Shown here in pieces: positions 3,741 through 16,497 of a stretch of DNA of 34,312 nucleotides. Within the stretch, counting starts at the first letter, position 1. Every line of letters starts with the position of its first letter. This stretch comes from a virus, in the IMG/VR virus record IMGVR_UViG_3300042898_002360, positions 1-34,312 of that record; one strand, given 5' to 3'. The notes under the pieces were generated by a model. The model was not told the DNA's origin and did not search any database. It saw nothing but the letters and a program-made list of their open reading frames with translations. Both the position numbers and the translations under genes were made by a program.

Positions 3741-5630
3741 GTGACTGTTATTAAAGACATAACAGAAGACTTTGCTTACGATTTAGCCATCTCACCTGAT
3801 GTATCAACTAACTACCAGTTATCTGATATATCTTTTGATATTGCAATAAACAATATGCCATTCTTTATTGCTGCAACAGATGAGCAACCTTATCGTAGAG
3901 AATCAGCACCTTCTAAACGTGAACAGATTGACCAAACAACTGAACCAGGTGAACAATCATTTACTGGTTGGTGGTTTAGAAGCCAATCATCATTTCATTT
4001 AGGTGCTGGTGCAAAGTTCTTTGAACCTGCACAAGATGAAACTTTACGTTACAGATTTAACGAATCACAAGGTGTAGATGTTTGGACCAAAGGTCAAGCA
4101 AGCCTTCTTAAAGGCACAGTTAAAATTTTAACAACAAGTAGTAATAGTTTATCTGTTGGTGCTAATGATGGTACTAATGATTGTCTTGTTGTAGCAGATG
4201 GTTCTGCTTTAAAGAAAATAACTTTATCAGCAGACACACCAACTGTTACCACATACACTCAAACAGGTACTGCTTCAGCGATACAGTCTTTGGCAACTAA
4301 CGGTTCTAAATACTTTTTTGCCAACGGTACACATATTCATTACGGTAACATTGGTAGCACAACTTCTGACATTGAAACATATAACTGTTCAGTACCAACA
4401 ACAATTGCTTATGTTAAACAAAGACTTTTTGCTGGTGTGGCAAACGCTTTACACGAACTTGATGCAACTAAAACAACTGGTGGTCATACTTTACCAACAG
4501 CAATTTTCACACATTCAAACACTTCTTGGGTTTGGTCAGCAATATCTGAAGCAGGTCCAGCAGTTTACGCTGCAGGATATGCTCGCAATACTTCTGCAAT
4601 ATTTAAAATAACTGTTAAAGATGATGCAACACTTAACACCCCAACTGTGACAGCAGAACTACCTGTTGGTGAAAAAGTTTTATCAATGTTTTCTTACCTT
4701 GGTTACATAATTATTGGAACAAGTAAAGGTGCCAGAGTTGCACAAGTTGAACCAACTACAGGTGACTTGGCTTACGGTCCTCTAATTTTTGAAACCACTG
4801 ATGGTGTTAAATCTATTTTTGCTAAAGACCGTTTTGTTTGGTGTGCAGGTAAACCCAATTCAGTTAGTGGTCTTATCCGTATTGATTTAAGTGAGCAGGT
4901 AAGTCCTTTAAGGTTTGCTTACGCAGCAGATTTAGAGGCTGTCGCTTCAACATCTTTAGTTAACTCTGTTACTCAAATAGGTGACAGGCTTGCTTTTGCC
5001 ACAGCAGATAACGGTGTGTGGGTTGAAAGAGCCACACAACTTGTAGCATCAGGTTTTATTCGCACAGGTTTTATTAGGTATGCAACTATTGAATCAAAGT
5101 TTTTTAAGTTCTTAAAAGTTCGTGGCAATCTTGATGATGGAACTATAGATGTTAATACTATAACAAATAAAGAAGTTGATACGTTTCTTTATAACGTTAC
5201 TACTGAAACAACTAACCTTGATTTAGGTATTGCTAGACCTGTTGGTGCTCAAGAGTATCTTGCTTTTAAATTTGACCTTAACAGGGATGATACTGATACT
5301 GCTGCTGGTGCTGTGATGAGTGGCTACCAAATTAAAGCGTTACCTGCTATAGAGAAACAAAGACTTATCCAGTTCCCATTGTACTGTTATGACGTGGAGA
5401 TGGATAAGTATAACAACATTGTTGGTTCCGAAGATGATAGAGCATTTGACCGTATCTCTGAACTTGAAGGTATAGAGAAGACTGGCAACATTGTTACTGT
5501 TCAAGACTTTAGAACTAATGAAACATATTCAGCGTTGATTGAAGAGATTAGATTCTTTTCTGCAACACCACCAAGTGAAAGATTCAATGGTTTTGGTGGC
5601 AAACTTCTACTAACTGTAAGGAAACTATAA
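3741..5630 (+). CDS. Minor tail protein, large
   Basis: The 629-residue protein starts with a GTG four bases after the previous stop. The N-terminal third carries a signature I associate with actinophage minor tail proteins: FFIAATDEQPYRRESAP, then TEPGEQSFTGWW, then SQSSFHLGAGAKFF. The middle has repeated blade-like segments such as SANSLSVGAND-type and LVVADGSALKKITL stretches, suggesting a beta-propeller. The C-terminus contains a domain ending in FGGKLLLTVRKL. Its TAA overlaps the next ATG. It is probably part of the tail tip, upstream of the lysis genes as in many siphophages. Confidence 0.75.
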   Translation: MTVIKDITEDFAYDLAISPDVSTNYQLSDISFDIAINNMPFFIAATDEQPYRRESAPSKREQIDQTTEPGEQSFTGWWFRSQSSFHLGAGAKFFEPAQDETLRYRFNESQGVDVWTKGQASLLKGTVKILTTSSNSLSVGANDGTNDCLVVADGSALKKITLSADTPTVTTYTQTGTASAIQSLATNGSKYFFANGTHIHYGNIGSTTSDIETYNCSVPTTIAYVKQRLFAGVANALHELDATKTTGGHTLPTAIFTHSNTSWVWSAISEAGPAVYAAGYARNTSAIFKITVKDDATLNTPTVTAELPVGEKVLSMFSYLGYIIIGTSKGARVAQVEPTTGDLAYGPLIFETTDGVKSIFAKDRFVWCAGKPNSVSGLIRIDLSEQVSPLRFAYAADLEAVASTSLVNSVTQIGDRLAFATADNGVWVERATQLVASGFIRTGFIRYATIESKFFKFLKVRGNLDDGTIDVNTITNKEVDTFLYNVTTETTNLDLGIARPVGAQEYLAFKFDLNRDDTDTAAGAVMSGYQIKALPAIEKQRLIQFPLYCYDVEMDKYNNIVGSEDDRAFDRISELEGIEKTGNIVTVQDFRTNETYSALIEEIRFFSATPPSERFNGFGGKLLLTVRKL

Positions 5631-12440: not shown

Positions 12441-13244
12441 CTATGCTGTTTCTTTAATATCAGCCAAATACATAAACGCTGGATTAAAATCTAAAAATAC
12501 TGCTTCTGTTCCATTAGCAACTGCTTTGCCATAACGATTCTTTACAGGTGCAACTGCTAAATCACCACTAGGTGTCATACCAAGAGTACATATCATTGCA
12601 GGTAGTTGTGAAACTTTACCTTGAATCATATAACGTGGTGGACATATTGGTTGCACACCATCTTGGCTTGGAATATATGCTTCTGAGGTGTGATGTAATA
12701 AAAGAATTGCAGCGTTAGTATCTCGTGCTAAATATTTTATTTCTTTCATTGTTGCACGCATACCTGACCACTCTTCGTTACCACCTTCAGTAATATCTGA
12801 AAGGTTATCTATAACAATTAGGTGTGGATTTTCTCCGTGTACTTCTTCGAATGCAAGGACTTCTTCATCAATATCAGATAGATTAGGTGCAGCCTCAAAC
12901 GACCACTTGATATGTCCTGCTTTATTTAATTCAGTGCGTGCTCTGTCTTCGTCACTAGCAAGTATGCGTTCGGCTTCAACTTGACTTACCCCAGTTATCA
13001 TTGAATACAAACGCATACCCATAGTGTGTGCGCCAGTGTCAGCGCAAATATAAAGGGTTGGAACATTAGTTCTTAAAGCAACTGCTAATGCAAGTGTTGA
13101 TTTACCAACACCTGGTGCTCCAGCAAACATTGAAACTTCACTTCTTCTAAGAAGTATTTTCTCTGCGCTGAAAGCCCTGAATACAGGTGGCAATGGTTCG
13201 CCACCTGCTTCAGTTTTACCAACAGTTCTACTAATTGTTCTCAT
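12441..13244 (-). CDS. RecA-fold ATPase, DnaB-like helicase domain
   Basis: The 267-residue protein has Walker A GAPGVGKST at 42-50, Walker B LIVIDN at 142-147, and AAILLLHH about 40 residues later, the typical DnaB/RadA sensor strand with a catalytic Gln replaced by His-His. It consists almost only of the ATPase core, without the DnaB N-terminal domain. Homologues in actinophages are called DnaB-like helicases and lie beside primase and SSB, as here. It should act at the replication fork or in recombination. Start is the ATG at 13244; the binding site is weak. Confidence 0.8.
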   Translation of the reverse strand: MRTISRTVGKTEAGGEPLPPVFRAFSAEKILLRRSEVSMFAGAPGVGKSTLALAVALRTNVPTLYICADTGAHTMGMRLYSMITGVSQVEAERILASDEDRARTELNKAGHIKWSFEAAPNLSDIDEEVLAFEEVHGENPHLIVIDNLSDITEGGNEEWSGMRATMKEIKYLARDTNAAILLLHHTSEAYIPSQDGVQPICPPRYMIQGKVSQLPAMICTLGMTPSGDLAVAPVKNRYGKAVANGTEAVFLDFNPAFMYLADIKETA

Positions 13245-13250
13245 TGAACT

Positions 13251-13670
13251 TTAGTTTACCCATCCTGGTTGACCCTTACGAATCCATTGTGGTTGGCATT
13301 GTTCTGCTTTACGTTCTTTAGGCAGTGGACACATCCACGCTTGCCAAGGACCTTTAGCACCTGTTCCTGCTTTATGAACAAGTGTTCCGTGTTGGCAAGA
13401 AGGCGCAGGACCACTAACACTTGGTGGTGTTACAGGTGCAAAAGAATTAGATGTTGCAACAACTGTTCCACCTAATGCTTGTGCAGCGTAGGCTGCGTTT
13501 GCCCCGTCACCAAGAATTGCTTCTTCTAAAGCGCCAACAAGATTATCAATACTACCAGTCACTGCATCATTGATATTCTTTTTTAAGTCATTAAAATCAT
13601 TACCACGAACAGTAACAATTGTTCCAATGCGAGTTTTCACATTGACTACATATGCTGACTCATTTGACAT
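13251..13670 (-). CDS. Hypothetical protein with C-terminal zinc-binding motif
   Basis: The 139-residue protein has an N-terminal domain (residues 1-65) with TRIGTIVTVRGNDFNDL followed by a helical segment, and an Ala/Pro/Ser-rich linker. A C-terminal domain contains CQHGTLVHKAGTGAKGPW, then WMCP, then EQCQPQW. The Cys/His spacing suggests a zinc knuckle. Similar tails occur in uncharacterised actinophage replication-module proteins, some predicted to bind DNA. It lies between the helicase-like gene and the exonuclease, overlapping the latter by 11 bases. A recombination or ssDNA-binding accessory role is only inferred. Confidence 0.65.
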   Translation of the reverse strand: MSNESAYVVNVKTRIGTIVTVRGNDFNDLKKNINDAVTGSIDNLVGALEEAILGDGANAAYAAQALGGTVVATSNSFAPVTPPSVSGPAPSCQHGTLVHKAGTGAKGPWQAWMCPLPKERKAEQCQPQWIRKGQPGWVN

Positions 13671-14340
13671 TGATTATCTCCAACTCTCCTAATGGTAAGT
13701 GCTTCTCACCATTGACCCAGTAACAGTATTCTGTTAATGAGCACATTTTACAACCATCGAAGTTAGGAAGATACAGTTGCTCTTTTCTTGCTTTCTGAAA
13801 CAGGGCAACCATTTCATCTAACTTTCTTAGCGTAAATCCATCAAGGTTGACAGGGTTACTGGTAGCACCAGTCCTTGCCATCCAATAGCATCCCCAACTT
13901 GGTCGGACACCGTAGAAACGTTCCATCATACAAGCATAAACTTGTAACTGTAAATCTGTTTGAGGTGTTCTCATACCTGTTTTCAAATCAAGAATAACAA
14001 GTTCACCATCAGGTGTTACAAAGATTCTATCAACAGCACCTTTGAAAGCAATGCCACCCATTTCAACTTCCATAACAAGTTCAATACCTGGTTCACCTGT
14101 TGGTGTTGTCCAAATTTTCCAATTAGAATTTTTGCGCCACTCAATCCAATTGTTTACAAACTTACGACCATTGATGTACCACCAGTCAGCGTTCTCACCT
14201 TCAGGATTTGCTTTAGTTGAACGTGATGATTGACGAAGACTTGTTAAATTATATTCGTCGCCTTTAAGTTGTTTAATTTCATCAACTTCAATACCCCAAG
14301 ACTTGTCCCATATTTCTTCAACATTTATTGTGCTGTCCAT
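13660..14340 (-). CDS. Cas4/RecB-like exonuclease, C-terminal part of a split gene
   Basis: The 226-residue protein holds the nuclease core: GAVDRIFVTPDGELVILDLKTG with D104, D118 and K120, then QLQVYA for the QxxxY motif. The C-terminal iron-sulfur cysteines are C197, C200 and C206 (CKMC and EYC). In intact relatives this region follows directly on a CxxxY-type N-terminal segment with the fourth cysteine and a GGxAVHxATE motif. Here that part is a separate gene at 14707-14907, and another gene lies between. The start ATG at 14340 has GGAG seven bases upstream inside the preceding gene. The product probably pairs with the N-terminal part in trans to process DNA ends in replication or recombination. 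Confidence 0.82.
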   Translation of the reverse strand: MDSTINVEEIWDKSWGIEVDEIKQLKGDEYNLTSLRQSSRSTKANPEGENADWWYINGRKFVNNWIEWRKNSNWKIWTTPTGEPGIELVMEVEMGGIAFKGAVDRIFVTPDGELVILDLKTGMRTPQTDLQLQVYACMMERFYGVRPSWGCYWMARTGATSNPVNLDGFTLRKLDEMVALFQKARKEQLYLPNFDGCKMCSLTEYCYWVNGEKHLPLGELEIINVK

Positions 14341-14714
14341 AATTGCTCTCCATTGTTTATATTAAGATAACCAACAGTTTTGGTTACACGCATCTTGTTA
14401 GCAAAATCTGTTGTTGCAGGAAGACCAGTTTTATCTTCCCATTTAATATTAAAATCTTTAAGATTGAATGACCAAATACCTTTAGGTGTGTAATTAACAT
14501 ACTTAGGTGTCATTCCTTTTTCTGCAGCAATTTTAACAATTCTATCATACTTAATCTTTTCAATTAATAAATCATCATAATGTGTTTTACGACATTTAAG
14601 TTCAACGTATTCACGCATTTCATCAGAGTAACAATCCCAGTTAGAAAACTGTTCAGTTGATAAAACATATTTGTTATCTTTGTTAATAAAATTAAACAGT
14701 TCTTGCTCAGTCAT
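14325..14714 (-). CDS. Putative PD-(D/E)XK endonuclease inserted in the split exonuclease gene
   Basis: The 129-residue protein contains REYVELKCRKTHYDDLLIEK, with an ExK pair at E38 and K40, then YDRIV, then YVNYTPKGIWSFNLK, then VGYLNIN. This resembles small restriction-fold nucleases of the PD-(D/E)XK superfamily. It overlaps the N-terminal exonuclease gene by 8 bases and the C-terminal gene by 16, so the three are translated as a unit. Its position, splitting a conserved gene while both halves stay open, is that of a mobile endonuclease as in split nrdA genes of T4-like phages. Homing activity is inference; the family is recognised only by motif. Confidence 0.65.
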   Translation of the reverse strand: MTEQELFNFINKDNKYVLSTEQFSNWDCYSDEMREYVELKCRKTHYDDLLIEKIKYDRIVKIAAEKGMTPKYVNYTPKGIWSFNLKDFNIKWEDKTGLPATTDFANKMRVTKTVGYLNINNGEQLWTAQ

Positions 14715-14907
14715 TAAGTTTCCAAGTCATTAAATCGTAAGTCTCAGTTGCACGATGCACTGCACTGCCACCTAAAGTCCAAGTGGCTGGCTCTTCGTCA
14801 ACTTTTGCAATACGAGATAAATAGTAACGATAACCACAAGACAACCAAGTGGTTAAACTAGAATACGAAGTGTGTTCAGGGACTTCGTAACCATTAATTT
14901 TTAACAC
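14707..14907 (-). CDS. Cas4/RecB-like exonuclease, N-terminal part of a split gene
   Basis: The 66-residue protein starts with GTG at 14907, with GAGG six bases before it. It carries SYSSLTTWLSCGYRYYLSR, the N-terminal Cas4/AddB-type motif with the first iron-sulfur cysteine (C24), then WTLGGSAVHRATE. These motifs match the beginning of actinophage Cas4-like exonucleases of about 290 residues, whose remainder is encoded at 13660-14340. The protein ends at TGA right after the GGxAVHxATE segment, where the endonuclease gene starts. Since the four cluster cysteines lie on two polypeptides, the two must associate if the enzyme works. Confidence 0.78.
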   Translation of the reverse strand: MLKINGYEVPEHTSYSSLTTWLSCGYRYYLSRIAKVDEEPATWTLGGSAVHRATETYDLMTWKLND

Positions 14908-14940
14908 TTAATCCTCTTCCAGTTACCCTCAATATATGTA

Positions 14941-15280: not shown

Positions 15281-15604
15281 ATTTTATTACCAGATATACC
15301 ACCTCCTATTGATAGAGAAATTCCAGCCGAAGTTTCACGGGCTTATGTTCGTGAGCAGGTTATGATAAAAGGTTGGGACGGACAACAATGGGTATGTATA
15401 AATGAGTTAATAGATAGAGAATCTAAATGGAGTAATGTTGCAGATAACCCAACGTCAAGTGCGTATGGGTTGTTTCAAATGTTGAAGATGCCTAAAGGTT
15501 CTACTGTGAAAATGCAAACAGAGCGTGGCATAAGATACATTGAGCATCGTTACGACACGCCTTGTGAGGCGTTGCGACATCACAATCGCAAGAATTGGTA
15601 TTAA
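15281..15604 (+). CDS. Lytic transglycosylase-type peptidoglycan enzyme, probable ATT start
   Basis: The conserved part reads CINELIDRESKWSNVADN then SSAYGLFQML then RYIEHRYDTPCEALRHH and ends in NWY, which matches actinobacterial phage SLT/lysozyme-like domains; the Glu in DRES is the catalytic acid. The first ATG is at 15362, but coding character continues upstream (LPDIPPPIDREIPAEVSRAY) to a strong AGGAG at 15271-15275. Five bases after it is ATT at 15281, the only start with correct spacing, giving 107 residues. No signal peptide is visible. It is the only plus-strand gene within the early region and sits behind an attenuator-like terminator. Confidence 0.72.
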   Translation: MLLPDIPPPIDREIPAEVSRAYVREQVMIKGWDGQQWVCINELIDRESKWSNVADNPTSSAYGLFQMLKMPKGSTVKMQTERGIRYIEHRYDTPCEALRHHNRKNWY

Positions 15605-15898: not shown

Positions 15899-16148
15899 TG
15901 TTAATGAAGTCTATCATTCCTTCTGTTACATCTGCAAACTTCAATGCAATAACACCAACGGCTGCACAGATAACCCTGCGTGACGTTTCATCATCTATTG
16001 CATTTTCCCACATATAGTCAGCAGTGATTAGTTCTTCCATTTGTATAACAAGTTCTTCAATGACACTAAGTGATTTCTCAACATCTTCACCAATGCCTAG
16101 TTCTTTGAATACTTTGTTAATCATTTCTGGCATTTCTTCTTCTTGCAT
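15885..16148 (-). CDS. Small acidic helical protein
   Basis: The 87-residue protein starts at ATG 16148 (MQEEEMPEMINKVFKELGIG). It is almost entirely helical and acidic, with a middle segment EELVIQMEELITADYMW and a final ADVTEGMIDFINNEDE. A TTG-started version seven residues longer is less likely. It overlaps the WhiB gene by 32 bases and the zinc-ribbon gene by 14. No known family recognised. Confidence 0.6.
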   Translation of the reverse strand: MQEEEMPEMINKVFKELGIGEDVEKSLSVIEELVIQMEELITADYMWENAIDDETSRRVICAAVGVIALKFADVTEGMIDFINNEDE

Positions 16149-16497
16149 TAGGGTGAAACCTTTCCCCAAATGTATCTGGTTGTCCGAACTCCAGCATAGC
16201 AGGAGTTATGTTGTATTTTATTCTTAACTGACGTCTTTCTTCTGGTGTTGTGCCTCCCCATACTCCTAACACTTTCACGTTAAGAGCATAGTTGAGGCAC
16301 TCGTTAATCACAGGGCAACCAACGCAGTATTTCTTTTGTTCTATTCCGTGTCCTGCTTCAATGTCAAAGAACCAATCAGGGTCTGGGTGGTTATTGCATT
16401 TAGCAGTTTCAAAATAAGGAGTTTTAACATCAAGGCGTTTAGACTTGTGTGTTAATCGTGCTACTGAACTCCCTCTAGTACTGATAGTGTCTGCCAT
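16117..16497 (-). CDS. WhiB-like iron-sulfur transcription regulator
   Basis: The 126-residue protein has four cysteines in the WhiB pattern: C34, C58, C61 and C67 (KKYCVGCPVINEC), followed by the GVWGG turn at residues 78-82 and a basic C-terminal arm ending NARRRNARND. The family binds a 4Fe-4S cluster and the principal sigma factor in Actinobacteria. Phage copies, such as that of mycobacteriophage TM4, can repress host whiB genes and block superinfection. This gene is the best host marker in the window. It overlaps neighbours on both sides by 30-40 bases. Confidence 0.92.
   Translation of the reverse strand: MADTISTRGSSVARLTHKSKRLDVKTPYFETAKCNNHPDPDWFFDIEAGHGIEQKKYCVGCPVINECLNYALNVKVLGVWGGTTPEERRQLRIKYNITPAMLEFGQPDTFGERFHPNARRRNARND

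Follow-up and report, generated by a model that had tools for sequence, protein, structure and literature searches.

A Cas4-like Fe–S exonuclease probably long split between two phage genes, and a likely insertion hotspot at their junction in one clade

Why should a phage encode a Cas4-like exonuclease in two pieces with a nuclease gene between them? The question is raised by a locus in IMG/VR virus record IMGVR_UViG_3300042898_002360, of which we analysed 34,312 nt (the window; G+C 39.6%), and window coordinates refer to this whole stretch. Three minus-strand ORFs lie here, named N66 (66 aa), Mid (129 aa) and C226 (226 aa), with Mid between the other two (Table 1). A preliminary description of the sequence had presented them as an exonuclease gene broken by an embedded endonuclease gene, each ORF having its own start and the overlaps being 8 and 16 nt; the ORFs, the overlaps and the starts (GTG, ATG, ATG) were all found as described. 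In the window sequence, a Shine-Dalgarno-like GGAG or GGAA is present ahead of every one of these starts. The three-gene arrangement is not a product of chance, because equivalents of all three genes are present in the relative L003 (L numbers label relative contigs or loci, L002 being ct2KA10) at 94–98% identity, and because the median dN/dS is low throughout (0.161 for the N half, 0.174 for the C half and ~0.13 for Mid).

Table 1. Positions of features at the exonuclease locus of the window, followed by the loci in which each kind of occupant lies between the N and C halves.
Feature	Position or loci	Strand	Basis
DnaB-like replicative helicase gene, after D139; control junction	12441..13244	(-)	phrog_243, E 5e-68
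D139, neighbour gene, always directly after the C half; control junction	13251..13670	(-)	Phage_gp49-like C-terminal part
C226, C half of exonuclease, 226 aa	13660..14340	(-)	ORF, ATG start; PDDEXK_1 positions 98-246, Cas_Cas4, phrog_1870 positions 81-292
16-nt overlap, C226 start inside Mid end	14325..14340	(-)	ORF positions, sequence
Mid, inserted gene, 129 aa, predicted PD-(D/E)XK, Hjc-like fold	14325..14714	(-)	ORF, ATG start; alignment; model; Foldseek; VIA-align
Shine-Dalgarno-like GGAGAG before C226	14346..14351	(-)	sequence
8-nt overlap ATGACTGA, Mid start over N66 stop	14707..14714	(-)	ORF positions, sequence
N66, N half of Cas4-like exonuclease, 66 aa	14707..14907	(-)	ORF, GTG start; PDDEXK_1 positions 2-48, phrog_1870 positions 11-65
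Motif I His H51 of N66	codon 14755-14757	(-)	invariant in N-half alignment
Fe–S ligand C24 of N66	codon 14836-14838	(-)	invariant in N-half alignment
Shine-Dalgarno-like stretch GGAAGAGGAT before N66	14911..14920	(-)	sequence
Occupant: Mid	window, L003, L028, L091-L101 group, L111-L115		
Occupant: X1, ~160 aa, weakly phrog_18407-like	L006-L013, L016, L020-L025, L104		
Occupant: X2	L015, L084-L093, L102, L105		
Occupant: X3	L019		
Occupant: DUF7004 alone	L026, 3644-4129		E 8e-49
Occupants: DUF7004 + Mid	L024, DUF7004 at 4786-5271		E 8e-49
Occupants: Mid + X1	L004, L005		
Occupant: SLT-type transglycosylase	L120, L125, L143, L147, L149, L150		
Occupant: small ORFs, 41 to 60 aa	L107, L117, L122		
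Occupant: coding-like inserts, about 200 to 970 nt	ct2KA10 clade		

The two outer ORFs are parts of one enzyme family. N66 and C226 cover consecutive stretches of both PDDEXK_1 (Pfam; both matches above the model cutoff) and phrog_1870 (PHROG), and so represent a single family in two parts and not two families; C226 also matches Cas_Cas4. When aligned to fused exonucleases, namely gp70 of Mycobacterium phage Larenn, gp72 of Mycobacterium phage Landor and gp36 of Cutibacterium phage Aquarius, the two halves together span the whole fused protein, and the split point falls just past motif I in a poorly conserved stretch, N66 ending ~15 residues after H51 and C226 starting directly with exonuclease sequence. 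The 129-aa region is missing from the fused relatives and is thus no normal domain of the exonuclease. Searched as a profile against solved structures, the C half matched only UvrD-like helicase-nucleases and weak PD-(D/E)XK entries.

The residues needed by such an enzyme are divided between the two proteins. The PD-(D/E)XK/RecB motif set (H, D, DxK, QxxxY) is complete, with the histidine in N66 and the remainder in C226, and all four Fe–S cysteines of the Cas4 family are present, C24 on N66 and C197, C200 and C206 on C226. Invariant positions are C24 and H51 in the N-half alignment, and D104, D118, K120, Q131, Y135 and the three cysteines in the C-half alignment, so the earlier claims of one Cas4-like exonuclease with its cluster ligands spread over two polypeptides both stand. 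With an active-site residue and one cluster ligand located on N66, C226 should have no activity by itself. Over 73 diverse loci the catalytic and cysteine residues are conserved, and the protein distances of the N and C halves are closely correlated (r = 0.93, 2628 pairs). Together with the low dN/dS of both halves, which shows purifying selection and agrees with the functional halves proposed before, this correlation indicates that the halves are kept by selection and evolve together, although purifying selection on N66 would equally fit a separate function of that protein.

The related loci, which represent a large group of aquatic phages, show how far the split extends. Viral-contig loci carrying both halves were sorted by script into 145 distinct relatives, including the window and two ct2KA10 records. 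Every one is split, all at the same point; 91 have no insert and 54 have one, and an uninterrupted exonuclease gene was found in none of the 145. At the insert-free loci the ATG of the C half overlaps or abuts the stop of the N half, with overlaps of 1–20 nt that are mostly 4 nt (ATGA) or 1 nt in one clade and 8 to 20 nt in the ct2KA10 clade. None of the insert-free junctions examined lacks this ATG, and this speaks for separately initiated, translationally coupled halves and against frameshifting. The frame step from N to C is constant (+1 or +2) within each insert-free clade, and the 54 filled loci have offsets of 0, 1 or 2; readthrough is therefore not required. The only fused forms seen come from distant phages of Mycobacterium and Cutibacterium and from a single Streptomyces contig, L231, which was the sole fused relative in the genome scan. 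The other scan matches were mostly weak or partial, and among the matches examined for an N half, one of five (L231) had it. Rooting the exonuclease tree with the fused phages did not order the split relative to the first insertion (root support 43%).

The protein between the halves is a predicted nuclease. Three residues of Mid (D27, E38 and K40) are invariant in its alignment, and a model built with 20 homologues (pLDDT 89, pTM 0.81) matched the archaeal Hjc 2wcw in Foldseek (E 1.3e-4) and the Hjc 2wiw in VIA-align (Z 11.5, rmsd 2.6, 104 residues), with lower Z values for RecU (7.8) and DpnI (6.8). Mid is thus predicted to have a PD-(D/E)XK fold closest to that of the Holliday-junction resolvase Hjc; in the model the likeness extends over nearly the whole chain and includes the D...ExK core, whereas identity to Hjc is ~16% and Mid has no Pfam or PHROG family match. 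Because the closest fold is that of a resolvase, the name homing endonuclease is unproven, and Mid may act in recombination as a resolvase-type enzyme, in homing as a nuclease, or in both ways. It is an optional gene, matched in 11 of 28 long related records, and lies ~4 kb away from the exonuclease in ct2KA10. The nuclease fold and the coming and going of Mid among relatives agree with what had been proposed. In the Mid tree, the copies at the exonuclease junction group together with weak support (0.24). Homologues of Mid also lie directly after genes with a LAGLIDADG-like motif (GLFDGEGS, recognized by eye) in L059 (2164-2613) and L068 (5577-6020), possibly as nuclease islands, and the homologue in L310, a relative of ct2KA10, has one reported in-frame TGA and is perhaps a decaying copy.

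Mid is one of several occupants of the junction. The 54 filled junctions hold Mid, DUF7004, a transglycosylase, two or three further kinds of protein or small ORFs, singly or in pairs (Table 1). Mapped on the tree, the occupant states require 15 Fitch parsimony steps, including that from intact to split, where shuffled labels require 46 on average, which indicates inheritance of an occupant for some time, followed by exchange; at least 14 occupant changes took place. L024 and L026 are 99.5–99.9% identical in their flanks and differ by Mid, with ~20 nt altered at the edge, and this pair and the patchy presence of Mid only suggest mobility. L106 has no insert, but the last residues of its N half, NKMEQL, are those of the X2 protein in its sister L102: the insert was deleted, leaving this remnant as a scar and a gene that is still split. 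X1 is among the commonest inserts; its model (pLDDT 84) gave weak fold matches, such as PA endonuclease (E 0.7), too weak to keep X1 as a candidate nuclease, and it has no match in the cultured-phage collection. The window itself contains, at 15362-15604 (+), an 80-aa ORF resembling SLT transglycosylases (phrog_35836, phrog_15428), the family that occupies the exonuclease junction in six of the relatives (Table 1).

The next two junctions served as controls. In the window clade, 42 of 43 loci carry an insert at the N/C junction; at the C half/D139 and D139/helicase junctions the figure is 0 of 41 each. The D139/helicase junction carries inserts in the ct2KA10 and L116-L146 clades, and the N/C junction is thus not special in the ct2KA10 clade. 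In D139 a variable N-terminal part precedes a C-terminal one that resembles gp49 of mycobacteriophage L5 and the class II ribonucleotide reductase tail (phrog_364); the gene lies beside the helicase gene in relatives and is possibly a small DNA-metabolism helper. A WhiB-like Fe–S transcription factor is encoded at 16117-16497 (-) of the window, and also upstream in many relatives; its presence in the window suggests an actinobacterial host.

How, then, did the enzyme come to be in two pieces? The preliminary description held that the exonuclease gene was intact until a mobile PD-(D/E)XK endonuclease, Mid, entered and broke it. The invariant D/ExK core and nuclease fold of Mid are consistent with such an event, as are its absence from many nearly 40-kb relatives, its location elsewhere in the ct2KA10 genome and its clean gain or loss between L024 and L026. 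However, the same split exists without any insert in most of the relatives, others have unrelated non-nuclease genes at this junction, and with no fused gene known in the clade, no intact target for cleavage was seen. The intact version lacking the middle gene, which the description had proposed to look for, did not appear among the viral-contig relatives. Since insert-free relatives are split and near fused copies are absent, Mid broke no intact gene in any lineage seen, and we consider this origin unlikely. The locus may instead be an ordinary boundary in a mosaic genome, where a frameshift or a start or stop mutation split the gene and cargo, with Mid as a Holliday-junction resolvase, arrived later by recombination without homing. 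Two overlapping genes without an insert as the commonest state, the existence of non-nuclease cargo, the Hjc fold of Mid and the inserts at the D139/helicase junction in two clades all fit an origin of this kind, to which we give slightly less than an even chance; the filling of the N/C junction in the window clade, next to empty neighbouring junctions, is more focal than random mosaicism.

Two further accounts concern the product and not the origin of the split. Ribosomal frameshifting, splicing of a group I or II intron, or ligation by a split intein could yield a single full-length protein, and the constant frame step within each insert-free clade would suit such a product. Against them stand the C-half ATG in every insert-free junction examined and the three frame steps seen with inserts. 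In addition, an Rfam search of 92 kb that took in the window gave no family; around the inserted gene, no intron RNA matched Rfam at the gathering score in the window and seven loci, and the genes overlap directly. An intein would need space for its halves at the end of N66 and the start of C226, which is lacking: the alignment shows no extra sequence at the break, and Pfam gave no intein family match. A single product is thus very improbable. Still less probable is a dead enzyme whose halves are remnants, for which nothing but the split itself speaks; this reading is refuted by the selection data, namely the low dN/dS of both halves and the conserved catalytic and cysteine residues.

To place the locus among known systems, we compared it with published cases. 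A survey of Cas4 proteins assigned enzymes of Mycobacterium and Propionibacterium phages to the PF12705 group and described four conserved cysteines in the family (PMC5704561). These RecB-type exonucleases share family, motifs, cysteines and a position upstream of a DnaB-like helicase gene with the enzyme described here, but they are single polypeptides of 270-313 aa, whereas the loci described here always have two genes. The exonucleases of C1 mycobacteriophages carry inteins (PMC5050341) and are likewise Cas4-like phage exonucleases targeted by insertions; their intein lies in a catalytic motif and is removed by protein splicing, in contrast to the intein-free break after motif I in our case. 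Two further cases come from T4-like phages. In Aeromonas phage 25, the DNA polymerase gene 43 is split (gp43A/43B) with a seg gene, and since another sequence stands at this break in the relative 44RR, the nuclease may have entered a gene that was already split; the split halves co-purify and are active (PMC2988022). Both systems are split replication enzymes with varying sequence at the same break in related phages, but gp43A/43B is a different enzyme, has no Fe–S cluster and has far fewer known occupants. A passage of the same paper, citing Friedrich et al. 2007, describes the Aeh1 ribonucleotide reductase gene nrdA as split by mobE into halves that are functional together. There, as here, a nuclease gene lies between two halves, each of them conserved as a separate gene in our case; however, mobE encodes an HNH homing endonuclease and nrdA is intact in near relatives, whereas the exonuclease is split in near relatives that lack the nuclease. 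Insert-free near relatives with an intact gene, as in genes-in-pieces, are thus absent here, fused forms occurring only in distant phages. Nuclease genes that mark exchange boundaries in phages are also known (PMC10448857). In our literature search, which was of partial coverage, we met no account of a Cas4-like exonuclease that is split. Phage genes-in-pieces are already known as a type; new here are the enzyme, the division of an Fe–S cluster and an active site between chains, the breadth of the split state and the range of occupants.

The explanation we favour, and consider probable, is a long-standing trans-split Fe–S exonuclease whose N/C gene junction is an insertion hotspot in the window clade. 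The sequences show the split, a conserved start for each half, the retention of all motifs and equal purifying selection, as well as insert-free splits across a wide clade. A Cas4-like Fe–S PD-(D/E)XK exonuclease would be made in the replication module as two separately initiated chains from adjacent overlapping genes, the N protein giving one cluster cysteine and the motif I histidine, and the C protein the acidic and lysine catalytic core and the remaining three cysteines. We infer that the two chains associate physically and assemble into one enzyme, with cluster formation and nuclease activity following from assembly. The junction would act as a gene boundary that repeatedly gains, loses and exchanges genes, at which inserts may ride because insertion there does no harm, and which in the window phage is occupied by an optional gene for a nuclease with a predicted Hjc fold. 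It is possible, though we lean against it, that the exonuclease is an obligate two-protein enzyme whose cluster and metal site form only when the chains meet, and that several mobile genes, among them rival nuclease genes able to displace one another, use the junction successively.

For annotation, these results are a warning that an 'exonuclease' label on the C half may miss a 66-aa half with an active-site residue. If the trans-split reading is true, the enzyme would be an unusual case of natural splitting, with an Fe–S cluster held by ligands from two separately made chains of a single nuclease domain, and stable across large sequence divergence. The natural states of the junction, i.e. insert-free, filled, swapped and scarred, allow the invasion, persistence and loss of split genes and nuclease genes to be tested in phages.
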